A stretch of DNA of 22,908 bases from positions 1-22,908 of IMG/VR virus record IMGVR_UViG_3300020478_001120. The stretch is one strand, 5' to 3'. The notes under the pieces are model-generated. The model was given only the letters and a program-made list of their open reading frames with translations. It was not told the origin of the DNA and ran no database searches. The DNA comes from a virus. The translations under genes and the position numbers were made by a program. Shown piece by piece: positions 5,261 to 19,449 of the stretch (positions within the stretch are counted from its first letter, which is position 1; each line of letters opens with the position of its first letter).

Positions 5261-6562
5261 TCAAACAATAATTTGTACTCTTCCACGGTTGCCGTATCCC
5301 AAACCGGCGGCTTCTGTGAAGCATCCAGAAGTGGCATCGACTTGATCGTCGTGCCAAGACGCTTCAGGGAAGGTAGCCATCTCGTCTAGGAAATCTGAGA
5401 TCCACGGACCGCGCACTAGTCGGACGTTGCCATTTGCAAGAGCAGCGGCAAGTGGTTTGGATCGAGTTACTTTGTCTCCAGTGGAACGGATACCCAAGAA
5501 GTCGCATCCGGGAAGAACGTATCGGGCATATTGATCGATTAGGTTTTTTCCGCTACTGCCGGGTTCTTGTTCCATTCTGATGGAGACATGGGGTCCGTCA
5601 GTTTGAGCGGTTTCTGCAATGAGGCGTTCCACTTTGTCGCCTTTTCCTCGTATGCGTTGTACGTCAATAATGTAAAAGACACCTTGGTCGAACACACCCA
5701 GAACGCCTACAGTCCAGTCGGGATCAGGGTTAACGTGGGATGGTTCTGTGCCGGCAAGATCCCAGAAGCGAATATATTGAGGTTGTTTGAATTCTGGAAT
5801 GTCAGAAGGTTCAATAACTATAAAAGCCTCCCTGTCGAACATGCTTCCAGTGGTAACAGCCCACCAGTCGCCATTTTCAAGACGCTGACGTTCAATGGGG
5901 TCAATTTCTTGGAGTGCTCTACGATATGATTCGGGATCAATTCCGGGATTGTCATCTAGAAAACTTGGAACAAATATTCGTTTGTTCTCTGCTCCTTCTA
6001 CAATAAATCGCTGTCTGACCCAGTTGGGTGCAGGGTTGGAAGCGGAACGCATGCGTAGTGGAACCTGAGCAAGGGGACCACTGTTGGGTTTACGCAAACG
6101 GCTGAACATGTATCGGTAGTCAAATTCTCTGATTTCTGTTACCTCGTCCATTCCAATGAATTGGAATTCTGAAGACTTATAACGAAGGTAGTCGTTTTGG
6201 TTGTTTAAGTATCCAAATGTAATTCGCGCAGAAGATGGAAATGTTGCTACATAGGTGGAGCCATTCCAGTGAACTTCGTCGTATTCTTTTACCCAAGAAA
6301 GAAAACGATCCATAAGCGCTCCGGGTAGGGCTAAGTCTGCGTAGGTGCGCCTGAATAGGATTGCTGAATAATTGGGCACATCGACATATTGGAGGGCAGC
6401 CATGAGCAAGGCAGACGACTTGCCTCCACCTGCGGCACCACCAAATAATGCTTCTAGGGACAATGATCTTAAATATGTTTTCTGAGTTAAAGAAGGCGCC
6501 TCTGGACAATACATTGGTTCAATTGGCTGAAGAAACTCATAGATGTCTGACCAGTCTTTCAT
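5261..6562 (-). CDS. terL: Terminase large subunit (packaging ATPase-nuclease)
   Basis: A 433-residue protein with both terminase domains. The N-terminal ATPase has a Walker A loop GGAAGGGKSSA (41-51, K48), the arginine-rich strand ILFRRTYADL (68-77), Walker B FQFIGMDE (133-140) with the catalytic E140, and the coupling motif RSASNP (172-177). The C-terminal RNase H-like nuclease opens with IRFWDLAG (D268) and DPDWTVGVLG, and ends with the acidic metal site in WHDDQVDA near the C-terminus. It drives genome translocation into the prohead at the portal and cuts the concatemer. The length is normal for a short TerL. The start at 6562 has only a weak ribosome site. The gene is transcribed away from the portal operon, an unusual arrangement since the two are commonly co-directional. 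No small terminase subunit is recognisable in the window. Confidence 0.96.
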   Translation of the reverse strand: MKDWSDIYEFLQPIEPMYCPEAPSLTQKTYLRSLSLEALFGGAAGGGKSSALLMAALQYVDVPNYSAILFRRTYADLALPGALMDRFLSWVKEYDEVHWNGSTYVATFPSSARITFGYLNNQNDYLRYKSSEFQFIGMDEVTEIREFDYRYMFSRLRKPNSGPLAQVPLRMRSASNPAPNWVRQRFIVEGAENKRIFVPSFLDDNPGIDPESYRRALQEIDPIERQRLENGDWWAVTTGSMFDREAFIVIEPSDIPEFKQPQYIRFWDLAGTEPSHVNPDPDWTVGVLGVFDQGVFYIIDVQRIRGKGDKVERLIAETAQTDGPHVSIRMEQEPGSSGKNLIDQYARYVLPGCDFLGIRSTGDKVTRSKPLAAALANGNVRLVRGPWISDFLDEMATFPEASWHDDQVDATSGCFTEAAGLGYGNRGRVQIIV

Positions 6563-6796: not shown

Positions 6797-9019
6797 ATGG
6801 CATGGAACTCCACAAATAAGGCGATTACATCTGGTGATAAGAAGTCTATCTCTGTTGGCGCACCCATATCATACAATGCAGGTTTAGTAGGCAAGCCATA
6901 CTCTGATGGTTGGGACATAGAGCGTGCCTACAAAGAAGGTTTAGCAAAAGTAACTTGGGTTTATCGTGCTATTGATGCTATTTCTAGTAATCAAGCACGC
7001 TTGCCAATAGCATTTTTGAAAGACAATTCTCCATTCGGTGAACGTGTTTTACGTGAAGAAGAAAATAAAGAATTAGCAAAATTATTAAACCAACAAAGCA
7101 ATGATGGGGAAAGTGCTTTTGCTTTCAGGTATCGAGTTTCTTCTCAATTGTTAATGAGCACTCGTGGAGTGTTTATTGAAATAGTTAGAGGTCGCGGTGG
7201 GACACCTATTGCGTTGCATATTTTGCCACCTCAAAGCACCGCTCCTATTCCAGATGAAAAAAAGTTCGTAGCGGCATTCGAGGTTGAATTACCCAACGCT
7301 AAGAAACAAAGATTAAATCCTAAAAATGTAATTTGGATTCGTCGTCCACATCCGTTAGATCCATATTTGTCAATGACACCTATGGAGTCGGCAGGCGTGG
7401 CTATCGAAGTTGAACATTTGGCAAAATTGTATAACAGAAATTTTTTATTAAATGATGGACGTCCGGGTGGCTTATTAGTTTTAAGGGGGCAAATAGATGA
7501 TGACGACAAACAAGAACTCCAAGCGCGGTTTAGGGGAAATCTTGCTAGGACTGGTGGAGTGGGTGTTATCTCATCCGACGATGGTGCAGATTTCGTCGAC
7601 ACAGCAGCAAGTCCGAGAGATGCGGCGTACGAGGCTCTTAGACAAGTAACCAAAGAAGAAATTTTGGCGGCATTTGGAGTGCCGGAGTCTGTTATCGGAA
7701 ATGCGGCAGGCAGGACATTTTCCAATGCGGCTGAAGAGGGGCGGGTGTTCTGGAATGAGACAATGAATCCTCATTTAGAATTACTTTCTCGTGGGCTGGA
7801 TGTGCTAGATGAGAAATTCTACGTTACCTTCGACACTACTTCTGTTCCTGTATTGGAATTGGCGAAACAAGAAAAGGAACGTCATTATCTCCAAGAGGCT
7901 CAAATGGGGATGATTACTCCTAACGAGTATCGAGAGGTCACAGGCAGAGAAAAGGTAGATGCATTTTTGGCTGACTCCATGTTGGCAAGTCCTAATCTCG
8001 CTCCGATAGGAAATACAGAAGAACCGATGCCTAAAGAAGAGGCGATGCCTCCGGGTGGAATGCCTCCGGGTATGATGCCTCCGGGTATGGCACCTCCGGG
8101 CATGATGCCACCAGAGGAAGGAATGACGGAAAGTGATCTTCAGGCTCTTGAAGCAGGAAACATTCCAATTCCTCCAGCAGAGCCAGTTCCAGAACCAGAA
8201 ATTCTTCCGGGTCAAAAAACCATAGAAGATTTTGAGGTTAAAAGATTTGATTTGAATGGTGAATGGGAAAATAAAGCATTTCAAGACATTGATCGTTGGG
8301 AAGCAATTTTCAATAGGACTCTGGAGCGTTATTTTGAACGGCAAGAACGTGTAATTACTGAAAAGGTTTCAGGAGCCAAAACAAAAAGATTACTTTCTAA
8401 CGGCGATTTGAAAATCGAACAAGTGTTTGATAGTGATGTTTGGAATAAACAACTTCGTGAAGACCTATCTCCAGTAATAACAGGAGCGATGATTGAGGCA
8501 TCTTCTACAGCATTGTCAGATTCTGATGAAAAGGTTGATCCAGATGAAGAAGAGATTCAAGAGTATATTGAATCGCAGTTGTCGCGGGCAGAACTTGTTA
8601 ATGAGACTACGAAAAAGGAATTAGCAGGAGCAGTTGTTCTGGCCACATTATTGATGGGCGAGGATGACGATGAAGCCCCATTAGCAGCAAAAGTAGCCAT
8701 GCTCACAACAGCGGTTAGTGCGGTTTTTGCCGCTTTGTTAACTAAGCGTTTAAAGGACATTGCAGAAGTGGAGAGCACGGGAGCCTATAACGCAGGTCTA
8801 TTCTTTGGTGGTAGTCGTGCGGGGGCTACAACAAAAACGTGGATTACTCGTACGGACAAGAAGGTAAGAGCGGCACATGCCGCATTACAGGGTAAAACTG
8901 TTGGAATAAAAGACGGTTTCAAGGCTGGAAGACATGCTTTAAGATTTCCGGGTGATCCTTTGGCTCCACCAGAATTAGTTATTAATTGCCGTTGTTTACT
9001 GAAGTTTGGTGAAGAATAG
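6797..9019 (+). CDS. Portal protein fused to MuF-like head morphogenesis domain
   Basis: A 740-residue protein. Residues about 30-390 are an HK97-type portal, recognisable from VTWVYRAIDAISSNQARLPI near the N-terminus, VIWIRRPHPLDPYLSMTPM, NRNFLLNDGRPGGLL, and the stem region EEILAAFGVPESVIGN followed by AGRTFSNAAEEGRVFW. A linker of repeated MPPGG/MPPGM units (about 417-439) and a Pro/Glu-rich stretch follow. A helical region comes next. The C-terminus is a MuF-type domain (about 640-738) with TKTWITRTDKKVRAAHAAL, RFPGDPLAPPE and the closing INCRCLLKF. Portals form the dodecameric packaging channel; MuF proteins are minor head proteins made in some phages from a separate gene just downstream. 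The fusion fixes their ratio at one to one. The absence of a separate MuF gene nearby agrees with this. Confidence 0.92.
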   Translation: MAWNSTNKAITSGDKKSISVGAPISYNAGLVGKPYSDGWDIERAYKEGLAKVTWVYRAIDAISSNQARLPIAFLKDNSPFGERVLREEENKELAKLLNQQSNDGESAFAFRYRVSSQLLMSTRGVFIEIVRGRGGTPIALHILPPQSTAPIPDEKKFVAAFEVELPNAKKQRLNPKNVIWIRRPHPLDPYLSMTPMESAGVAIEVEHLAKLYNRNFLLNDGRPGGLLVLRGQIDDDDKQELQARFRGNLARTGGVGVISSDDGADFVDTAASPRDAAYEALRQVTKEEILAAFGVPESVIGNAAGRTFSNAAEEGRVFWNETMNPHLELLSRGLDVLDEKFYVTFDTTSVPVLELAKQEKERHYLQEAQMGMITPNEYREVTGREKVDAFLADSMLASPNLAPIGNTEEPMPKEEAMPPGGMPPGMMPPGMAPPGMMPPEEGMTESDLQALEAGNIPIPPAEPVPEPEILPGQKTIEDFEVKRFDLNGEWENKAFQDIDRWEAIFNRTLERYFERQERVITEKVSGAKTKRLLSNGDLKIEQVFDSDVWNKQLREDLSPVITGAMIEASSTALSDSDEKVDPDEEEIQEYIESQLSRAELVNETTKKELAGAVVLATLLMGEDDDEAPLAAKVAMLTTAVSAVFAALLTKRLKDIAEVESTGAYNAGLFFGGSRAGATTKTWITRTDKKVRAAHAALQGKTVGIKDGFKAGRHALRFPGDPLAPPELVINCRCLLKFGEE

Positions 9020-9099: not shown

Positions 9100-10410
9100 G
9101 TGCCCATGCCAACATTAACTTTTACAGAAGATACAGAAATCCGTTTTAAGGCTCGTGCTGGTCAAGTCAATATTGATCAAGCAAAGGGCATTGTTGAATG
9201 TTTTGTTGCCGCTATAGGTAATAAAGATTCGGTCGGTGACATAATTATTCCCGGCGCTTTTGATGGTTCATTAAAGCGACGTAAACCACGCGTGGTGTGG
9301 GGGCACAATTGGAATGAACCAATTGGAAAAGTTTTAGATATTTATGAAGTTCCACCCAAGGACAGGCGACTACCTGAGAAGATGTTTGATGCTGGTGTTG
9401 GTGGTTTGTTTGCCAAAGTTCAATTTAATTTAAATGCTGAACGAGGCAAGGAGGCATTTGCAAATGTCGCTTTTTTTGGTCAAGAACAAGAATGGAGCAT
9501 AGGGTATAAAACTATTGATGCTGATTATGACCCCACTCATCAAGCAAATGTTTTAAAAGAAGTGGAACTTTATGAAGTTTCACCTGTTTTACATGGAGCC
9601 AACCAGTTGACTGGAACTCTGTCCGTAAAGGAAAACCAAGATTGCGGTGAGGATGGCGAACTGTGTGGAGTCAAGGGAATTTTTGAAACTGAAGATCCAA
9701 ACACAGAAGAAGTTTCTGATGTGGCGGCATCTCTTGAAAAGGCTGTAAATGCTGCTTTTAAAGAAGATGTAACTCTTTGGGATTTTGATGACACTAGGGC
9801 AGTGGTCACTAAGGGTGACGAAGCGTGGGTTGTTAACTATCACTACGATGATGGTTTATCAGAATTTATGTTTTCTCAACCCAAGCAGGCTGTTTTAGAA
9901 ACCTTTGTTCGTGTTTTAGATGAAGAGGTGAAAGACGGTTGTTGTGATTCTTGTGCTAAGGGCGATTCAACTGGTTGTGAATCAAAGACTGAAGAAGACG
10001 AAACAGAAGTTAAGGGTGGGAGAAAACTCACTCGTAGTGTTCAAAAACTTAATCAGGCTATTGAGATTCTTCAAAGCATAGTTACTGATGTGGTGCCCTC
10101 TGAGGGTCCGCTAGAGCAAAAAGAACCTACTGAAGAAAAGGTGCTTTTGTCTGGCGATTATTCCGAATATTCAAAATCGGTTCCGTTCGAGTGTGAAACG
10201 GAAGAAGAAATGGCTGATGTCTTAGAGGCGTTGGTCAAGGTAGGAATTCCAGTAAGGTTTCCTACTCCTGAGTTGTTTGCGGCAGGTGACAAAGTAGTAG
10301 ATGTTTTGTTGCCGGCAGATGAGCAGACTAAAGAAAGTGTTGTAAATGCCATGGGCAAGGCTTTAGCCAATGTCGAATGGCTCATACCCCAAACCAGTAA
10401 CAAGGAGTAA
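9100..10410 (+). CDS. Prohead protease (HK97 U35-like) with long C-terminal extension
   Basis: A 436-residue protein (from GTG at 9100). Residues about 20-180 match the herpesvirus-like U35 prohead proteases: a first strand GIVECFVAAIGNKDSVGDII, PGAFDGSLKRRKPRVVWGHN with catalytic His H69, EWSIGYKT with the likely nucleophile S133, and the strand LYEVSPVLHGANQLTG with E159. The enzyme trims scaffold and capsid proteins during maturation. The next 250 residues are extra. They contain Asp/Glu-rich stretches, a cysteine cluster (CCDSCAKGDSTGC, about 289-301), a helix (KLTRSVQKLNQAIEILQSIV) and a compact C-terminal block. This part may act as scaffold. The start is uncertain: GGAGG at 9083-9087 is 12 bases before GTG 9100, while ATG at 9106 would use the GGGG run. 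The mature size may differ by two residues. Confidence 0.88.
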   Translation: MPMPTLTFTEDTEIRFKARAGQVNIDQAKGIVECFVAAIGNKDSVGDIIIPGAFDGSLKRRKPRVVWGHNWNEPIGKVLDIYEVPPKDRRLPEKMFDAGVGGLFAKVQFNLNAERGKEAFANVAFFGQEQEWSIGYKTIDADYDPTHQANVLKEVELYEVSPVLHGANQLTGTLSVKENQDCGEDGELCGVKGIFETEDPNTEEVSDVAASLEKAVNAAFKEDVTLWDFDDTRAVVTKGDEAWVVNYHYDDGLSEFMFSQPKQAVLETFVRVLDEEVKDGCCDSCAKGDSTGCESKTEEDETEVKGGRKLTRSVQKLNQAIEILQSIVTDVVPSEGPLEQKEPTEEKVLLSGDYSEYSKSVPFECETEEEMADVLEALVKVGIPVRFPTPELFAAGDKVVDVLLPADEQTKESVVNAMGKALANVEWLIPQTSNKE

Positions 10411-10412
10411 TA

Positions 10413-12518
10413 ATGTCCGAAGAGGTCAAAGACGAGCAGTCATCAGAAACTGCCGAAGAAAAGTCCCTAGAAGAGCAAATCGCTGCTCTGGAGGACATTG
10501 CTTCATCGTTTGAAGAAAACACAGAAGAAAAATCTGAAGACGAAGAGGTTGAAAAGAAATCTGATGAAGAGTCAGAAGAAGCCGAGTCTGATGCTGGGGA
10601 AACCGAAGAGGCAGAAGCCGAATCTGATGAAGAGGAAGAGGCAGAGGCTGAATCCACTGAAGAGGTTGAAGCAGAGGCAGAAGAAGAAGGCGTAGGTGCC
10701 AAGTCGGACGAAGAAGATACAGATGCCAAAGCAGAAGAAAAAGGTGTAGGAGCCGATCATTCTGAAGAGGAATGTAAGGATATGGAGAATTGTAAATGGC
10801 ATGGCGTTGATGCTAAAGAAGCGGAAGATTCTGAAGAGAAGGCTCATCCTGTGGCAACTGGCTATCCATACGATCGTGTAGAGATGCAACCGGGTGATCC
10901 TGAGTTTGACGAAGAAGAAGACGAAAAGAACGTGATGACGGAACCTAAGAAACGGCGCATAGTTGTTGTGGAAATGGATCCATCAGAGGTCACTGAAGAT
11001 ATGAAGGCTTATGAAGTTGAAGTCGATGCAGATGAAGAAGAGGAATACCCTGAAGACGAAGATGCTAAACGTCACGAGGGAAGACCTCATCTTGTTGCAG
11101 TAGATGACGAGGAGCGTCGTCCTTCGATGGCTACTCCTCCGATGGCTACTCCTCCAAGGGAGACCCCTTCAGAGGCGCCCGCTCCTAATGTTCCTTCTGC
11201 TAACCCACGTTTGGCTCGATTATTAGCAATGGCTAATGCACAGAATGAGCGTCGCAGGGAAGAATCCGATGAAGACGAAAATGCTCGACCATTGCCAAAG
11301 GCAAGACTGGTTGGCGTTAAAGGCGAGGAAGAAGAATTAGTTATACCTGAAAACAGCGTGATGGATCCTGTTGCTTTAAGCAAGCGACTTAAAAGGTTGG
11401 GCTTGACTTCTGACGAGATTAAATCTTTTAAAACAGATGACTACATGTGTGGTATAGAACGAACTGTTCGCACAGGTGATGTTTGCAATTTCTGTCGTGG
11501 AGGTTGTGCAAGTGAGAAAGGTCTTCCAAGTCTTTTGGAAGTCGAACTTGCTGCTGAGGCAGAATATAAAGGTGAAGTAGTCGATTCAGGCTACGCACCC
11601 AAGGATGACATCTTTGTTCTTGATTTGAAAACAGCAGACGATGAATACATTGAAGCATATTATGCAGGTAACGGATCTGCGCTTGGCTGGATCATGCTAG
11701 ATGGTGATCTTGCAATCAAGTCAGCCGAAGAACAGACAGTTAGAGTTGTGTCTTTCCAAGATGCAGAACAGACGGCATTAAAGAACATTAAGGGCAAGTC
11801 TCTTGGTGTTGATGTGGATGTTTTCCAAGGCGAAGATGCCTACGTTGTGGAGATTGACGGAGCGGACGGCAAATCATATGACGCTTATGTGAGTGTTGAT
11901 GGACAATTCTTAGGTTCAGACATGCTCGATTTCACCGAAGACGAAGAGGCAGAGATTGTCGCACTACGGAAAGAAAAAGAAGCGTTGGAGTCCGAGTTGT
12001 TCCTGAAGCGTGCTTACAAGTCTGCTAATGCAGAGGAGATGGCAGCGGACGGTGTGGCTATGGCAGATGGTTCGTATCCAATTTTGACACCAGAAGATTT
12101 GGCTCATGCTATTCGTGTGAATCATCGAGTTAAGTCTTCTGAGTTGAAGAGTCATATTGAAAAACGTGCAGAACATTTGGAATGTCAAAACTTGATTCCT
12201 GCTGAATGGGTTGAAGAAAAAGCCATTCAGACAGATGCCCAAGCAGAACTAGAGGCTTCTTTGATGGAACTTCAAATGATAGAAGCAGGCCTTCCTGCTG
12301 ATGAAAAGCGAGTGTACACGGATGAAACCCGTCAGGAATATGCTGAACGTGGAATTGCTATGGAAGATGGTTCGTATCCAATTCGTGATGTCGGTGATTT
12401 AAAGAACGCTATTCAAGCGTTTGGTCGTGCAAAGAATCCTGAAGCCACAAAAAAGCACATTAAAAAACGTGCTGCGGCTTTAGGGGCGACTGACTTGCTT
12501 CCAGATCACTGGGAGTGA
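10413..12518 (+). CDS. Acidic 701-aa head-region protein with duplicated C-terminal domain
   Basis: It starts at ATG 10413 after AAGGAG, two bases past the protease stop. Residues 1-250 are extremely Glu/Asp/Ser/Ala-rich, low-complexity and probably unfolded. A Pro-rich linker follows (about 238-260). A middle part has a Cys motif (MCGIERTVRTGDVCNFCRGG, 345-364) and two short beta-rich segments resembling PepSY-type folds (YKGEVVDSGYAPKDD onward; GKSLGVDVDVFQGEDAYVVE). The C-terminus holds two copies of a domain of about 60 residues centred on AMxDGSYPI (M550 and M650, exactly 100 residues apart), each ending HIxKRAxxLxxxxLxPxxW. This domain is frequent in actinophage head-region proteins (DUF6582-like). 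The position after the protease suggests a scaffold or capsid-associated role. It does not look like an HK97-fold major capsid protein, and the function is not established. Confidence 0.85.
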   Translation: MSEEVKDEQSSETAEEKSLEEQIAALEDIASSFEENTEEKSEDEEVEKKSDEESEEAESDAGETEEAEAESDEEEEAEAESTEEVEAEAEEEGVGAKSDEEDTDAKAEEKGVGADHSEEECKDMENCKWHGVDAKEAEDSEEKAHPVATGYPYDRVEMQPGDPEFDEEEDEKNVMTEPKKRRIVVVEMDPSEVTEDMKAYEVEVDADEEEEYPEDEDAKRHEGRPHLVAVDDEERRPSMATPPMATPPRETPSEAPAPNVPSANPRLARLLAMANAQNERRREESDEDENARPLPKARLVGVKGEEEELVIPENSVMDPVALSKRLKRLGLTSDEIKSFKTDDYMCGIERTVRTGDVCNFCRGGCASEKGLPSLLEVELAAEAEYKGEVVDSGYAPKDDIFVLDLKTADDEYIEAYYAGNGSALGWIMLDGDLAIKSAEEQTVRVVSFQDAEQTALKNIKGKSLGVDVDVFQGEDAYVVEIDGADGKSYDAYVSVDGQFLGSDMLDFTEDEEAEIVALRKEKEALESELFLKRAYKSANAEEMAADGVAMADGSYPILTPEDLAHAIRVNHRVKSSELKSHIEKRAEHLECQNLIPAEWVEEKAIQTDAQAELEASLMELQMIEAGLPADEKRVYTDETRQEYAERGIAMEDGSYPIRDVGDLKNAIQAFGRAKNPEATKKHIKKRAAALGATDLLPDHWE

Positions 12519-12723: not shown

Positions 12724-15700
12724 ATGCTTGATGCCGATCTTGAGGTCAAATTACCTCAGGACTTAATTGACATAATCCCACAAGAGCGAGTTACTGGGGA
12801 TATTCTTCGTGGTTACGGTCCTCGTCGGGGAAATCTAGAAGCACTTCTTAGATACTGGCGTCCCATCATGCGAAAGCCGGGTGGTTTTCGACGCTGTATT
12901 GTGATTCTTGCGAATCATCCTGAGTTGTATCCGCTTCAACGTATTTGTGCGTGGTTGCACCATGAGACAACTGGTAAATGGCCTAATGAGGGTAATCATC
13001 ATGGCGTTCGTCGTGGTGGTGGTAGGGCTGGTCGTGTTCTTCGTCGTGCAATTCCCGGTAAAAGACGTAAGCGCCGTCGTAAGAAAAGTGATGGCGGTGT
13101 AGAGGTTTCCAGTTGGAGAATTTATAGACGTTTAGGTGGGATGGCGACACGACCTATTAATGGTGATTTGAATGCTCTTGAGTTTAAGGCGGCACGCTTT
13201 AAGCAGGGGTTTAAGTCTGTACCTATGCCGGGTTCTTTTGAGTGGGATGAAGAACATCTCGATGTTAAAGTCGGGTTAGTGCGAACTCATGGTCGTGCTG
13301 GTCGATGGCTTCAGAGTCTTGCTTCATTCTTCACTCCCGGTGACATGGGTAAATATCGTAGTCCTCTTCGTTCTGCTCTTTGGGGGTCGTTAACTCCGGG
13401 CGGCGGAGGAATGGGCAGAGGAATGGGCGGCGGCGGAATAGGCGGCGGATTGCCTACGATTGGTGGGGCCGCTAGTGCACTGAGATGTCCTACGGGATAT
13501 ATCAATGGCGGCAGGTTTACGGATCCCAAGTTGAGCAATTGTGGGGGCATGATTTTTGATCAGCCCGCTAAAGGTCCGGGTGCTATTACAGATGTAGACA
13601 GAGAGGAAATGACTCGTCGTTTTGAAAGTTCTCAAGCCCAAGATCTTCCTGATGTAGTTAGAGACATCGTTATTAAGAAACCTAAGGGTGATCCTTTTGC
13701 GGTAATGCGTGAAGCGGCTACAAAACCAAAGACAAGACCTAATAAGAAACGTCGTGACTCTACGGTTAAAGATGTTTTGGCATATACGTCTGAAAATAAA
13801 AATGAAACTCGTCTTGTTCGTAGAGATGGGGCAGTGTTTGAGCCAACAGTGGGACCAGAGAAGTTGGCGAGAATGGATCACGACAACATAAAAGAGGCGG
13901 TTTATGTCACTTCTAAAATTCCTGAAAAGGGTGGCATTGCGGGAGATGAAGTTCGTTTATTGACCAGAGGATTGAAAGCGATTGAGTATTCATTTCCAGA
14001 AGGAAGTGTTCGTTTAGAAAGAACGAGAGAAATAGATGCTGGTACTGCTGCAAAGATAAGAACTCGTTGGGGTGGCTTAACAAAGCATGCGGCATTGTCA
14101 TACAATCCGGCTGAAGCGATGGAACGATTAGTTAAAGAGTTTGCAGACACCCTGTCACTTAAGCCATCTTTCTTAGAAATACCCGGAGCACGAGATCGGA
14201 TAGTTGTTTATTCGGTTACAGGTGAGCGAAGAATAGTTCCACGATGGATCTTTTCGTTATATCTTTCTTTGAGAGCGCCTAGGCGTCCAAAGGGAACGGT
14301 AAAACCATTTACAGAGGTTCCTCCTGTGGAGGGAGAAGGTGGTCCTACCAAGTCGGAGTATTACCGTCCTGAACGTGGACGTTACGCCGTATTAGACATA
14401 CAACGTAAACCGCTGGCGTTACGTGTAGAGAAGTCTTTTCTCAATATAAGTCGCATGCGACTAGCACATAAAGGTGGGGTTGAAAAAGAATCGGTAGTTG
14501 ATATCAAGGCAGCGAAATTTTTAAATGTGCAAAATGATCCCGATTTAAGAATCAAATTGTTGGGTGGTTTAGGTAGACGTAGGGGACGAAGGGTTAGTAA
14601 TTTTGCACGTCGCATGCCTAAAGTGGCTCCGTATGATCCCAATCCGCGTGATGGGGATGTTGATGGTTTGGTTCAGGAGGGAACTATTTGGGAGAGACCA
14701 AAGGGAACTTTTTTTAGGGGGCTTACAGCAGGCGCAAGACGATTGAAGGTTGGTGCTTACTTGGCTGATGCTGATGGTAATCGTGTTGATTATTTGCCGG
14801 GTGAGCATCCTAATTCTCCTATAGGGAGGGCATATCAGTATGCCAATCCAGAAGAACGTGAGATGTGGGCGAGACGATTGGGTCGTGTCGAACGTGGGGC
14901 AGAGGGCATTATTGAAACCGAAGATATGAGAGCACGACGTTCCGCAGATTTTACTCCTAGAGAGCGTGTTAGAGAATATCGGCGTTTAAGATTGCAAAAT
15001 GCTCTTGAGGAAATTCGTACACAGCCGGAAAAAAGAGAGCGTAGAGCGCCTCGTTTAATAGAGGAAGCAGAAAGACTAGAGGGTGAAGCGGGGGAGGCTC
15101 GTTCTAGGGCAGAAGAGGCAAGAGAGAGAATAGCAGCCCGTCGAGAATTACTTCAAAGGCGTCGTGATTTAGATGAAGAGTTTGACGAGGAAGCGAGACA
15201 AACTGAGACCAATCGTGAGGAGACTGACGTCAATCGGCGAAGACGAGAAGCGCGTGCTCGTCTTACAGCAGAGGCAGATCCCAATGAGGCAAGAAGAGAG
15301 AGGGCGTCTCGGCGTTTAGAGGCTCTTGTTGCGAAGAGGGAAAAGAGAGAGGCTAAGGCTGCTCAACGTACTTTGTTGGAACGTATTTTGGATCGAAATG
15401 AAAAGATGAAAGCAACGGCAGACAAGATTCGTCGTAAGTTTAAGGAAAAGTCACGCGACAAGCATGTCGAGGAGGAGAGACAGGAAACTGTTGAAGATTT
15501 AGATACCCCATCAAGGGATCTTGACCAACAGTTGAGTTTATTTTCCATACAGGAAGTTTTCCAAGATGCTGCTATTGAGTCAGACGACGATGATTATGTT
15601 CCGCTAGAAGAAATAGACAAAGATACTCAGGCTTGGGCATCCGCTTTACTTGAAGAAGAAAACAGGCTTGTAGGTACAAGTTCTCTTGCTGACGATTTCT

Positions 15701-18700
15701 TTGAATTGTTCAAGGGAACTTTTGGGTCTGAGAATGTTGATGCTTCCCGTGAAGGTTTTACTGAAGAACTTTTAAGAATTTCGGATGATAGTGAAGAAAT
15801 CGTCATTACGGGAGGGATGGTTATATTGGCGCAGACGTTGCCGAATTTGTTTGAAGATGAAGCCAATCAAATGCACAAGATGTTGATTTTCAGCAGGGAA
15901 AGGCTTTCTGATAAAAAGTTGTGGCTAAATGAAGTGCCAGAAGCAGTTTTGAAGGCTCCTTCCTTTTGGGGGTTGCTGGCCGCTATTGAAGAGCATATAG
16001 AGGAAGTGGATGATCCAGCAAAATTGTTGGTGAGATTAGATCAACTTTGGGATTCAATCGTGAAGGCTGGAGGCATGTATGACGCCCTTGAAGAAGATAC
16101 TCGTAAATTAATAAATCGAAGGCTTAAAGATTGGCGTGACTCTCGTGAAGGTTCTGGTTTACCCGAAGAAGATGCTTTGGGGGCTTTATTTAAAGCAACT
16201 TTATTAATGGCATCGATTCGAGGTGAAAAAGATCGTTTATACAAGGTTCGTTCAGACATCGTTGCCACAAAAAGCAGGATGAGCGATGAAATTGAATTAG
16301 ATTCTTTGGCTGATTCCAATACCATTCCTGAAATAGATTCAGAAGATCTTGAGTATATAAATGAGCGAATGAGGCAAGCCTTTGCTCGTCGATTTAAGCG
16401 GGCAAAGGAGATGGATGAAGAATTAGAAACTAGAAGTGGAGAGTCTGAGCGTTGGGGTTTTGAAGGTTATGGCATTAATCTCGAAGAACTTTTTGAGAAG
16501 ATTGCTGACGGAACAGCAGATGCTGGGGGGTCAGCAAGGACTCTAAGTGAGGCGGGAATAAGCACCGAAGAAGAAAACAGACTTATAGAAGCGATACAGG
16601 ATGTTTTTATGGCGGGAAGGATCTTTCCTACAAAAGACAAAGACGTTACAGGTCTTGTTGCTTCTTATAATCAAAAAAGACCAAACAAATTCCCTCCGGG
16701 ATCAAGGGTTGGCAGGTTAGACGCATCGTCAGTTGAAGATTATAACCCGCCCGAAGTAAGGATAACCGTACATAAAAACGGATTGGAAATTGATATTTCG
16801 GGATCTATATGGGTACATGGTGGCGGACCACGAATAATGAGAGATGCAGAGGCAGTGAAAGGGTTTGGTTGGGTAAAAGGAGGATCGTTTGACCGCACTA
16901 TCTTCTTTAGGCGTGACAAGTCAGGTCGTATAACGGGAGAACTATATAACGGCGGTTTAGGTGTTGATGATGACCGTGATGCTGCTGGCGTGGGGGTGAA
17001 TTTGCAACAACGTGGCATAGGTGGGATCTTTACTACACATACTTTGAAATCCACATCTGCTTTAGGGGTAGATAAAGCCACTTTAATTAGTACTGATGAT
17101 GGTGAATTTATTTGGGGATTATACGGCTATAAATCAGACGATGGCGTTCCAGAATTACGGATGATTGCTGCTCTTCAGGAGGCAGTGGATTCTTACAGAA
17201 TAAATGGTCCTGACGAAAACAATATTATTTTAGATGACGAGATGGCAAATGAAGTTGAAGAGTTGTTGGCTGTTCATGCAAGGTCTGATGCTCTCAGGTT
17301 GCTTCATGCTCATCAAATTTTTCGAGGTGTTAACGGTAAGCATCCATGGGAGGACGAAGATGGTGACGACAAATTAAACTTGGCAACGGGGGGAATCAGA
17401 AAAAGAAACAAGTATGAGACATGGTGGTTGAATACTGCACCATTAGATAATGCCCACCTGCCTTTAGATGGTGATTTTGGTGAACTGTTAGAAGGAGAAC
17501 GCTCTGGAACGAACAGAAATGCTGCGGGAGTTGTAAGACATCAAGACACTGTTATAGGAGATAGGCCCACTGAGGAGACGGGGGATGTTGTAGCAACTCC
17601 TCTTCGCGGGGATGATCGTCAGTTGGCAATAATTTCTTCAGATAATAGATTACTTTCGGTTGGGGCTAATGACAATGTTCCTACTGGTGAAGATGCGGCG
17701 AAGATTTTGAAAGACAGTCAATTGGGTACTGGTAATTCAAAAATGAGTGATATCCCTGATGCTTTGTTAGGGGAGGCTTTGTCTCTTGTCGCTGAAGATA
17801 CAATGGAGGCTAGGCTACGAAAAGCAGCGCCAGAGGATTTGACAGAGGAAGGCAGGCGTGCGCGTGACGCAATATTCGGCCTTGAAGCGGCGGCTGATGC
17901 AATTCTTGATGGACAGTCAGGGGAACCGTGGCTTCTTGAAACCACTCCTGTGACAGCAAGTGTTGGAACGAGGGTTTTTTACTTATTGAACCCTGACGGG
18001 GATCCAACCATAAAAGGATTGGTTGTCAAGGGGGCCGATGCAAGAATGGAAGTTGTAAGAAAGGCAGATGGCGATATTCCAGTAGATACTGTGGCGACAG
18101 AATTTATAGGGATGCGACTTGCTAATGCTGTTGGTTATCCAACGGGTACTCCTCGATTAGACAGTCTCTATGACATAGGGGAAGAGACGGGTCGTACCGA
18201 ATTGGCTCCCCGACTTGTTTATGAAACTGCGGGTAATTTATTAGATGATGATGAGGTAGTTTCGGGTGTTAAAGCCGCTGGCGAGGGTCGTGGGACGGAT
18301 CTTAAATCAGAACTACGGCATGGAGTGTTCAGGTATTTGCTTGGCGCTAATGATGTACATGACAACAACATATTAGTTACAGAAAATGGTGAGGTTATTC
18401 CCATAGACCATCAGGATTCTTTTGGTGATGCGGAAATGTATGATGATCCGGCAGCAGATCTTTTTAACTATTTGGAAGATTGGCGTTCATCTGCAAGTGG
18501 ATCAGGTGGAATTCTTGGTACGTCTACGAGTAGAGAAAATGGGATATTTCTATTACGTCTTAAAGAAGCATTGGACACTGGAGAAATTTCAGAAACTGAT
18601 GTTCGTGAAATTATTTCAGACATGAAGGATTCTATGCGTATGGCATTAGTGAATGAGTGGGATGGGATAGCAGCGGATGTGGACAAGATAAATCAGGAAG

Positions 18701-18897
18701 CCATAAAGATGGGTGGATCAGATCGTGTGGAGTCTGGAGCGGCTACAGCGAAAATGGCTAGAGAAAAAGTTGAAGAACGCATAGAGGCAATAGAAAACGA
18801 TCTTGATGACTTCATGTATTCTTTACTTGCTTTGGATGTTGACGAAGAATTACAGAACCTTGGTAACTGGTCTTCGTATAAGACAAGAGGGAGGTAA
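12724..18897 (+). CDS. Giant 2057-aa multidomain protein: virion modules, coiled coil, GNAT-like and kinase-like domains
   Basis: It starts at ATG 12724 after AAGGGAG. Visible parts in order: (1) residues 24-105, an actinophage block with WRPIMRKPGGFRRC (45-58) and WLHHETTGKWPNEGNHH, then the basic run GKRRKRRRKKS; (2) a Gly-rich linker and a block CPTGYINGGRFTDPKLSNCG (255-274); (3) a globular stretch of about 200 residues, unknown; (4) a module with DGLVQEGTIWERPKGT (647-662), shared with the second giant gene; (5) a charged coiled coil (about 736-925); (6) acidic helical segments (to about 1330); (7) a GNAT-like domain (about 1340-1475) with the acetyl-CoA loop pattern Q-x2-G-x-G (QQRGIG, 1428-1433) and EFIWGLYGY (1461-1469); (8) a kinase-like domain (about 1740-1965) with candidate Lys K1780, NDVHDNNIL (H1879, N1882) and IDHQDSF (D1895), resembling PI3/4-kinase or HipA-type catalytic loops. 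The assignments in (7) and (8) rest on motifs only. Confidence 0.88.
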   Translation: MLDADLEVKLPQDLIDIIPQERVTGDILRGYGPRRGNLEALLRYWRPIMRKPGGFRRCIVILANHPELYPLQRICAWLHHETTGKWPNEGNHHGVRRGGGRAGRVLRRAIPGKRRKRRRKKSDGGVEVSSWRIYRRLGGMATRPINGDLNALEFKAARFKQGFKSVPMPGSFEWDEEHLDVKVGLVRTHGRAGRWLQSLASFFTPGDMGKYRSPLRSALWGSLTPGGGGMGRGMGGGGIGGGLPTIGGAASALRCPTGYINGGRFTDPKLSNCGGMIFDQPAKGPGAITDVDREEMTRRFESSQAQDLPDVVRDIVIKKPKGDPFAVMREAATKPKTRPNKKRRDSTVKDVLAYTSENKNETRLVRRDGAVFEPTVGPEKLARMDHDNIKEAVYVTSKIPEKGGIAGDEVRLLTRGLKAIEYSFPEGSVRLERTREIDAGTAAKIRTRWGGLTKHAALSYNPAEAMERLVKEFADTLSLKPSFLEIPGARDRIVVYSVTGERRIVPRWIFSLYLSLRAPRRPKGTVKPFTEVPPVEGEGGPTKSEYYRPERGRYAVLDIQRKPLALRVEKSFLNISRMRLAHKGGVEKESVVDIKAAKFLNVQNDPDLRIKLLGGLGRRRGRRVSNFARRMPKVAPYDPNPRDGDVDGLVQEGTIWERPKGTFFRGLTAGARRLKVGAYLADADGNRVDYLPGEHPNSPIGRAYQYANPEEREMWARRLGRVERGAEGIIETEDMRARRSADFTPRERVREYRRLRLQNALEEIRTQPEKRERRAPRLIEEAERLEGEAGEARSRAEEARERIAARRELLQRRRDLDEEFDEEARQTETNREETDVNRRRREARARLTAEADPNEARRERASRRLEALVAKREKREAKAAQRTLLERILDRNEKMKATADKIRRKFKEKSRDKHVEEERQETVEDLDTPSRDLDQQLSLFSIQEVFQDAAIESDDDDYVPLEEIDKDTQAWASALLEEENRLVGTSSLADDFFELFKGTFGSENVDASREGFTEELLRISDDSEEIVITGGMVILAQTLPNLFEDEANQMHKMLIFSRERLSDKKLWLNEVPEAVLKAPSFWGLLAAIEEHIEEVDDPAKLLVRLDQLWDSIVKAGGMYDALEEDTRKLINRRLKDWRDSREGSGLPEEDALGALFKATLLMASIRGEKDRLYKVRSDIVATKSRMSDEIELDSLADSNTIPEIDSEDLEYINERMRQAFARRFKRAKEMDEELETRSGESERWGFEGYGINLEELFEKIADGTADAGGSARTLSEAGISTEEENRLIEAIQDVFMAGRIFPTKDKDVTGLVASYNQKRPNKFPPGSRVGRLDASSVEDYNPPEVRITVHKNGLEIDISGSIWVHGGGPRIMRDAEAVKGFGWVKGGSFDRTIFFRRDKSGRITGELYNGGLGVDDDRDAAGVGVNLQQRGIGGIFTTHTLKSTSALGVDKATLISTDDGEFIWGLYGYKSDDGVPELRMIAALQEAVDSYRINGPDENNIILDDEMANEVEELLAVHARSDALRLLHAHQIFRGVNGKHPWEDEDGDDKLNLATGGIRKRNKYETWWLNTAPLDNAHLPLDGDFGELLEGERSGTNRNAAGVVRHQDTVIGDRPTEETGDVVATPLRGDDRQLAIISSDNRLLSVGANDNVPTGEDAAKILKDSQLGTGNSKMSDIPDALLGEALSLVAEDTMEARLRKAAPEDLTEEGRRARDAIFGLEAAADAILDGQSGEPWLLETTPVTASVGTRVFYLLNPDGDPTIKGLVVKGADARMEVVRKADGDIPVDTVATEFIGMRLANAVGYPTGTPRLDSLYDIGEETGRTELAPRLVYETAGNLLDDDEVVSGVKAAGEGRGTDLKSELRHGVFRYLLGANDVHDNNILVTENGEVIPIDHQDSFGDAEMYDDPAADLFNYLEDWRSSASGSGGILGTSTSRENGIFLLRLKEALDTGEISETDVREIISDMKDSMRMALVNEWDGIAADVDKINQEAIKMGGSDRVESGAATAKMAREKVEERIEAIENDLDDFMYSLLALDVDEELQNLGNWSSYKTRGR
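17847..17873 (+). repeat. 27-bp direct repeat, copy 1 (in the 2057-aa gene)
   Basis: These 27 bases are identical to 20489-20515 in the second giant gene and lie in the same codon phase, encoding EGRRARDA in both. The unit is GC-rich (18 of 27) in an AT-leaning region, and the flanking codons are unrelated. It precedes the kinase-like domain of this gene. Confidence 0.85.
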
Positions 18898-18899
18898 TA

Positions 18900-19190
18900 A
18901 TGGCTAATTTTTTAGTTATTCCTAATTTTCATACTCGTAATGCAAGTGCTGAGAATCCTCCAACAATTTTCATAGACAATGGTGAGAGTTATTCTATGGA
19001 AGGGTTTCCACGCACGGATTTATTAGGAATATTGAATAGTTTTGATAAACGGAATGTTCCGCGGGAGGATCAGTTTAGACGGCTTCTTTCTACATCCACA
19101 GTTCTTATGACTACTGCAACTCTTGGGAATGACAGTAATGCGGAGGATGCTAAAATTTTGGAGGAATACAGGGGATATATAAATGCCTAA
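18900..19190 (+). CDS. Unknown 96-aa protein after the giant gene
   Basis: It starts at ATG 18900, two bases after the 2057-aa gene stops, with a strong ribosome site inside that gene's end (GGGAGG). The 96-residue product begins MANFLVIPNFHTRNASAENP and has a short beta-prone opening, then PTIFIDNGESYSMEGFP, then a helical half (DLLGILNSFDKRNVPREDQF) ending EEYRGYINA. No Cys, membrane span or known motif is visible. The tight coupling to the giant gene suggests that the two work together, for example as a chaperone, partner or regulator of its enzymatic domains; that is inference. I do not recognise the family. Confidence 0.8.
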   Translation: MANFLVIPNFHTRNASAENPPTIFIDNGESYSMEGFPRTDLLGILNSFDKRNVPREDQFRRLLSTSTVLMTTATLGNDSNAEDAKILEEYRGYINA

Positions 19191-19449
19191 CCTTAGTGAT
19201 GATGCGGTTACAAAAATGCGAACTTTTATTAAAGAGCGCAATAACCCCGCACGTCTAGGAATGGTTGAAGTCGTTGCTCAGTATGTTGTGCACGATTTAG
19301 ACGACTTGGCTTTAGAGGATAAAGAAGAAGCATTAACTATGGCTAGATATCATTTGTCTACGGATCGTGGATTAGAGGATTTAAAAGCCCTGCTACCTAG
19401 TGCTGTTGGGTGGGCGTCTACGGATGCTCCCGGCTTGGAGTACAAGTAG
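19183..19449 (+). CDS. Unknown 88-aa helical protein
   Basis: It starts at ATG 19183, overlapping the end of the 96-aa gene by eight bases, with GGGGA upstream as a modest ribosome site. The 88 residues are mostly acidic helix: MPNLSDDAVTKMRTFIKERN, then GMVEVVAQYVVHDLDDLALE and EEALTMARYHLSTDRGLEDL, ending TDAPGLEYK. No catalytic or metal motif is visible. The overlapping arrangement places it in the same translational unit as the giant gene and the 96-aa gene. Family unknown. A small adaptor or head-completion protein would suit the size and place, but nothing in the sequence proves it. Confidence 0.8.
   Translation: MPNLSDDAVTKMRTFIKERNNPARLGMVEVVAQYVVHDLDDLALEDKEEALTMARYHLSTDRGLEDLKALLPSAVGWASTDAPGLEYK

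Follow-up and report, generated by a model that had tools for sequence, protein, structure and literature searches.

A giant head-operon protein of an uncultured virus joins a conserved N-terminal module to kinase and GNAT-like domains: a candidate virion-borne modular effector

What does a protein of 2057 amino acids do when it is encoded among the head genes of a virus and carries two apparent enzyme domains in tandem? The question arises from a 22.9-kb uncultured viral contig (IMG/VR record IMGVR_UViG_3300020478_001120), all 22,908 nucleotides of which were analysed and are here called the window. A gene for the terminase large subunit on the minus strand (5261-6562; phrog_979, 2e-97) faces an operon on the plus strand, where all other window features given here lie. 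The operon encodes, in order, a portal-MuF fusion (6797-9019; phrog_2662, 1.5e-96; Pfam Phage_portal, 3.8e-50, and Phage_Mu_F, 2.7e-7), an S78 prohead protease (9100-10410; Pfam Peptidase_S78, 4.5e-13), an acidic 701-aa protein (10413-12518), the giant protein of about 231 kDa (12724-18897), ORFs of 96 aa (18900-19190) and 88 aa (19183-19449), and a second giant ORF that is open at the contig end (19410-22907). The 701-aa protein contains the motif GxAMxDGSYPI...HIKKRA...DLLPxxW twice, and the motif occurs once in a 265-aa protein that precedes the major capsid protein in contig L042 (16373-17167). The terminal part of the second giant ORF consists of PEPDVPED-type proline-acidic repeats. The operon of longer relatives extends as far as a gene for an HK97-type major capsid protein (3e-43 to Pfam Phage_capsid), which places the giant gene between prohead protease and capsid protein. 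The giant has syntenic homologues in dozens of viral contigs, and a portal, protease or major capsid protein gene adjoins it in 80 of the 83 loci that bear its N-terminus, bearing out the head-operon placement proposed in the initial annotation.

The long reading frame is genuine: the homologue in the closest relative, L002 (87% identical), is likewise full length, and the frames of relatives are open over 1,357-3,649 aa. Its first 670 residues (12724-14733) form a net basic, constant module with a mean column identity of 73% in a nine-sequence alignment. Within it, residues 40-100 (12841-13023) hold the motif LHHxxTGxWPxEG, which is common to the giant and to actinophage protease/MuF fusion proteins. 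The motif region matches phrog_6439 (E = 2e-4), and residues ~50-96 resemble a stretch of gp22 of Microbacterium phage Tempo (E = 2.7e-7), whose annotation is capsid maturation protease/MuF fusion, so that the actinophage-like character first ascribed to the upstream part of the chain holds for this stretch. In named phages, this short motif was the only part of the module recognised. At the other end, residues 586-670 (14479-14733) combine IDxKAAxF, a basic stretch and an EF-hand-like loop (DxDxDGxxQEGTIWERPxGT); an HMM of this segment matches both giants of one operon, and the second giant ORF opens with it. The N-terminal part is also a separable unit, as judged from gene fission near residue 540 in L071/L072 and L084/L102. 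It is followed by a charged linker (residues 671-1289; 14734-16590) that is Arg/Glu-rich up to residue 960 and acidic thereafter, with a dN/dS of 0.78. The N-terminal part, which shares segments with the second giant and with actinophage head proteins, would serve as a virion module. In a rival reading, that of an assembly role, the giant could be an internal scaffold-like or maturation protein whose domains modify capsid proteins or the giant itself and never a new host. Its gene occupies the usual place of a scaffold between prohead protease and major capsid protein, its linker is long and charged, and the segment common to both giants suggests a common head-binding tag.

By profile searches and predicted fold, residues about 1650-1990 are a kinase domain of the PI3/4-kinase/HipA/CotH superfamily, with phosphotransfer activity as a prediction; the modelled region includes flanking helices (residues 1650-2057, core about 1691-1990; 17671-18894). 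Pfam PI3_PI4_kinase (PF00454) matched the isolated domain above its curated cut-off of 27.1 bits (30 bits, E = 6.1e-7) and the whole protein just under it (26.5 bits, E = 7.3e-6), and six of six close homologues matched as well. Against PDB sequences, a profile of six kinase sequences recovered DNA-PKcs, TOR2 and PI3K at 8e-5 to 3e-3, and a profile of 20 sequences matched ATM, FAM20 and CtkA. Proteins of 520 aa encoded upstream of the giant, which were matched by the tail of an iterated kinase profile, were excluded as profile drift. The AF2 model built from 20 sequences (pTM 0.78) is bilobal with a C-terminal helical lobe. Its Foldseek matches were VPS34, PI3K and HipA at about 2e-4 to 5e-4 (VPS34 and HipA at 1.8e-4 to 4.7e-4), and VIA-align returned CotH (Z 13.1, 271 aligned residues, 5.3 A), HipA (12.6), CtkA (11), PI4K-IIalpha (10.5) and Fam20 (9.3); the toxins HipA and HipT are among the nearest folds.

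The predicted active site agrees with this assignment and differs in one residue from the site first proposed. The initial annotation had named K1780 as the candidate lysine, a position occupied by Met in L002; the invariant lysine is K1769 (18028-18030; 23 of 23 sequences), which lies on the beta-3 strand (E112-121 of the model) and is accompanied by an equally invariant helix-C glutamate, E1793 (18100-18102; 23/23; helix H140-153). The catalytic loop NDVHDNN and the metal loop IDHQDSF (together 18352-18408) are kept in active-type members; H1879, N1882 and D1895, named at the outset, do lie in these loops, together with D1877. Of the structure foreseen, the bilobe stands, the model having K1769 on an N-lobe strand, E1793 in helix C, and the D1877/H1879/N1882 and D1895 loops; K1780 is rejected as the kinase lysine. 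In the 23-sequence alignment, D, H, N and the metal Asp are retained in most members, the window included; the window has Val at position 1878, where 21 of 23 sequences have Arg.

Residues about 1290-1540 (16591-17343) are probably GNAT-like, on weaker evidence than the kinase from alignment and modelling. GNATs carry an R/QxxGxG/A pyrophosphate loop between beta4 and alpha3 and a general-acid Tyr in a Y-x3-GF motif. The giant has a CoA-pyrophosphate-loop-like QQRGIG at residues 1428-1433 (17005-17022), whose counterparts in the alignment with true GNATs are FQGLGIG and RGRGIA, and a motif-B-like G-x3-W-x3-G at G1460, W1464 and G1468 (17101-17127). Five positions are almost invariant among relatives, G1448 as well as G1431 (28/30), G1460 (30/30), W1464 (27/29) and G1468 (28/29). 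An AF2 model from 26 sequences (pLDDT 73), which like the kinase model is of middling confidence, contains a strand series, the QQRGIG loop, a helix (1432-1446; H243-257), a strand (1449-1454; E260-265) and a further helix (1460-1466; H271-277) in the G-x3-W-x3-G segment. The order of loop, helix, strand and GEFIWGLYGY is as originally claimed, and profile-profile alignment by hhalign with true GNATs (eight sequences in all, drawn from a bacterial genome and one phage record) gave the same register at P = 3e-4, compared with 0.2-0.8 for kinase and N-terminal control profiles. In VIA-align, model residues 120-287 matched RimI (Z 6.6), GNA1 and HAT1 at Z 6.2-6.6 and GNATs made up most top rows; these scores stay below Z 8 and BPI- and Hsp70-type decoy rows also reach 5-6, so that Z alone is not decisive. 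Foldseek matches had E > 0.02, and the best BFVD matches were uncharacterised Caudovirales proteins (E = 2e-6), which are uninformative for function. The domain matched no Pfam or PDB sequence profile, and in 13 family records PF00583 was absent from the giants, its sole match being another gene. W1464 occupies the position of the general-acid Tyr, and the pyrophosphate loop is non-canonical in many relatives (GGGF or KGKGF variants). For these two reasons we call the domain GNAT-like rather than GNAT: the likeness in motifs that the initial annotation saw is upheld, that in fold is tentative, and catalytic competence is not supported, leaving acetyltransferase activity doubtful on sequence grounds.

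How the two domains are distributed was examined in relatives of the giant. Degenerate scans for the kinase only or the GNAT-like domain only yielded the L002 contig and two more; the productive route was via the portal and then N-terminal alignment, which found relatives encoded by 432 viral contigs. The best 80 of these 432 contigs were read. Some complete N-terminal ORFs are split genes (L071, L084, L102). Of 37 complete, non-redundant relatives, 26 have a GNAT-like domain, 25 a kinase and 21 both, with the GNAT-like domain first in all 21. The kinase may close the first giant, belong to the second (in L056 and L059) or have its own gene immediately after the first (L110-L117). Other domains lie in the same half. 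A NUDIX domain replaces the GNAT-like domain and is followed by a divergent HipA-like kinase in L090, L092, L106, L107 and L120, and a C-terminal Fic domain (HPFEDGNGR at residue 3298) replaces the kinase in the 3340-aa giant of L054 (9986-20005). Pentapeptide repeats occur in the giants of L040 and L065, and the giants of L075 (7565-18160; 3532 aa) and L076 (9971-20917; 3649 aa) carry sigma-70 region 4/HTH and polyA-polymerase-like domains. One homologue of the N-terminus, 72% identical, was found outside virus records, on a contig (L131) of a Verrucomicrobiales MAG; as this genome is the only carrier among 388 searched in the phylum, the contig is probably mis-binned virus DNA.

In L110, L111, L112, L116 and L117, the kinase is encoded as its own gene just past the first giant and has lost its catalytic and metal residues; the separate kinase gene of L116 additionally matches DUF7178. 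Kinases of the L110-L117 clade keep the Lys and Glu, look like pseudokinases by sequence, and indicate that kinase activity is not universal in the family. Their loss of DxHxxN and the metal Asp is one of three observations that would suit C-terminal domains that are catalytically dead folds serving as binding or structural modules; the others are V1878 in the window and the GNAT-like domain with Trp for Tyr and often without its R/QxxGxG/A loop. We nevertheless rate this reading as quite improbable, given the invariance of K1769 and E1793, the retention of the remaining catalytic and metal residues by most kinases, and the intact NUDIX and Fic motifs of the relatives bearing those domains.

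The exchange of domains also weighs against the assembly role. The head genes stay syntenic even where NUDIX, Fic, pentapeptide or sigma-r4/polyA-like domains have replaced the C-terminal half, and the kinase of some relatives is degenerate; one would expect constancy from an enzyme that assembly cannot do without. The two halves evolve at different rates as well. Comparison of the window with L002 gives dN/dS values of 0.06 at residues 1-340, 0.14 at 341-700 and 0.7-2.1 in C-terminal segments, ratios that are rough since dS is low and patchy (0.04-0.30). The highest dS, 0.30, falls at residues 1-340 (12724-13743), with 0.04-0.19 elsewhere, and this patchiness makes recombination within the giant gene likely. 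C-terminal ratios near 0.7-1 may reflect relaxed constraint instead of an arms race. An assembly or scaffold role is the main rival; it fits the position of the gene and fits neither the exchange of the enzyme half nor its much faster evolution, and we consider it unlikely. A conserved N-terminal part next to a fast-evolving C-terminal half, and the array of other domains in that half of relatives, lend support to an effector reading, in which the giant looks like a constant-head, exchangeable-effector protein.

The short ORFs beside the kinase add a further link. The 96-aa ORF begins 3 bases past the end of the giant, and its homologues occur in six of six near-clade contigs in which a kinase ends the first giant (the window, L002, L063, L064, L066, L068) and in none of five distinct near-clade contigs in which it does not (L054, L065, L056, L058/L059, L060), counts that represent few independent lineages. 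The near clade keeps the 88-aa ORF whether or not the kinase is there. In most other clades an ORF of 67-103 aa abuts the kinase gene, as it does after the second giant in L059; comparison of these clade-specific families detected no homology between them. Small ORFs are frequent in phage operons. The 96-aa ORF is, by analogy, a candidate immunity protein or chaperone for the kinase, which is a lead rather than a result. A HipS-like antitoxin was considered for it and set aside, as this had no Pfam support and the clade-specific small ORFs are not detectably homologous. That a small ORF tracks the kinase, and that HipA and HipT are among its nearest folds, would also accord with a toxin-antitoxin-like or superinfection-exclusion protein whose kinase acts inside the producing cell under control of the adjacent ORF. 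This we regard as very unlikely: the kinase is fused to a 670-residue module conserved only alongside head genes, the gene has a late-operon position, and Pfam searches of the giant and the 96-aa ORF gave no match to a HipB-type HTH, the HipA N-terminal subdomain, HipS or Couple_hipA.

Taken together, we favour, at slightly better than even confidence, the reading that the giant is a virion-borne modular effector, packaged and ejected with the DNA, whose kinase would act on a host protein. Packaging, ejection, activity, host target and the role of the short ORF are inferred, with polyvalent proteins and MuF toxins as the analogues for packaging, ejection and target. The giant would be expressed late; its conserved basic N-terminal ~670 residues would act as the virion module, docking to DNA or to the inside or outside of the capsid, and would bring the protein into the head, from which it would be ejected with the DNA. 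The C-terminal half, set off by the long charged linker, would supply the enzymes (GNAT-like and HipA/CotH/PI3K-type kinase), of which the kinase may phosphorylate, or nucleotidylate, a host protein early in infection, while the short downstream ORF might protect the cell in which the giant is made or serve as a chaperone for the kinase. More tentatively, and with somewhat less than even confidence, the family may represent a widespread polymorphic head effector system: a constant virion-targeting N-terminus, two ordered exchangeable slots (GNAT-like or NUDIX, then kinase or Fic) that are mobile between two giant genes, a small partner gene that accompanies the kinase and encodes its immunity protein or chaperone, and a host-modifying protein of >200 kDa injected with the DNA. 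HipA/CotH-type kinases are usually viewed as chromosomal toxins. If the giant is packaged and ejected, such kinases would be tied to virion-borne host takeover, and many environmental phages (N-terminal relatives in 432 contigs from one scan) would inject very large multi-enzyme effectors. The system would then offer a defined N-terminal virion-targeting module, kinase residues K1769, E1793, D1877 and D1895, and a candidate partner gene per kinase.

Named phages gave no matches in DNA-level and tblastn searches, whether for the window, for the giant or for its domains, and a literature search found no paper describing this giant-protein family. Known systems resemble it in parts. Like HipA, HipT, CotH, CtkA and PI4K kinases, the kinase domain has a predicted bilobal fold, a beta-3 Lys, a helix-C Glu, and DxHxxN and IDx(4)F loops; unlike them, it shares only 10-17% identity with these proteins, is embedded in a phage giant, and in the window has Val for the Arg of the DRH triad. 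The GNAT-like domain follows RimI, GNA1 and HAT1 in the order and register of beta4, R/QxxGxG loop, alpha3, beta5 and alpha4, and departs from them in having no Pfam match, Trp for the catalytic Tyr, an often non-canonical loop and a helical C-terminal end. The head regions of related, cultured actinophages also encode giants, namely in Streptomyces phage Gilgamesh (gp48, 4624 aa; L134, 17682-31556) and Actinomycetia phage DSL-LC01 (3289 aa). The former, a hypothetical protein, directly follows a portal-MuF fusion of the window's portal family; none of the three modules of the window giant was detectable in either protein.

The closest parallels lie in how such proteins are built and encoded. 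In phages and conjugative elements, polyvalent proteins bring together GNAT, kinase and further enzyme domains; they are products of late genes and are predicted to be packaged and injected (Iyer et al. 2017, PMC5512222). As described there, they share with the giant a very large size, several unrelated enzyme domains and a location beside virion genes. Their kinase is of the Ser/Thr/Tyr type and has lost the C-terminal subdomain, whereas the giant has a kinase of HipA/CotH/PI3K-like type for which the model shows a C-terminal helical lobe; the sections consulted do not describe the N-terminal module of the giant. MuF polymorphic toxins (PMC5576092) have a constant head-associated N-terminus, an exchangeable C-terminal toxin and a small downstream ORF, and are encoded in the packaging operon. 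The giant likewise has a constant N-terminus, an exchangeable C-terminus, a small ORF downstream and a place in the head operon, but its chain contains no MuF domain, which is instead fused to the portal (6797-9019), and its C-terminus is multi-enzyme. By the features tested (no MuF domain, another type of kinase, a different N-terminal module), the giant belongs to neither group, and it appears to work like the proteins of both.
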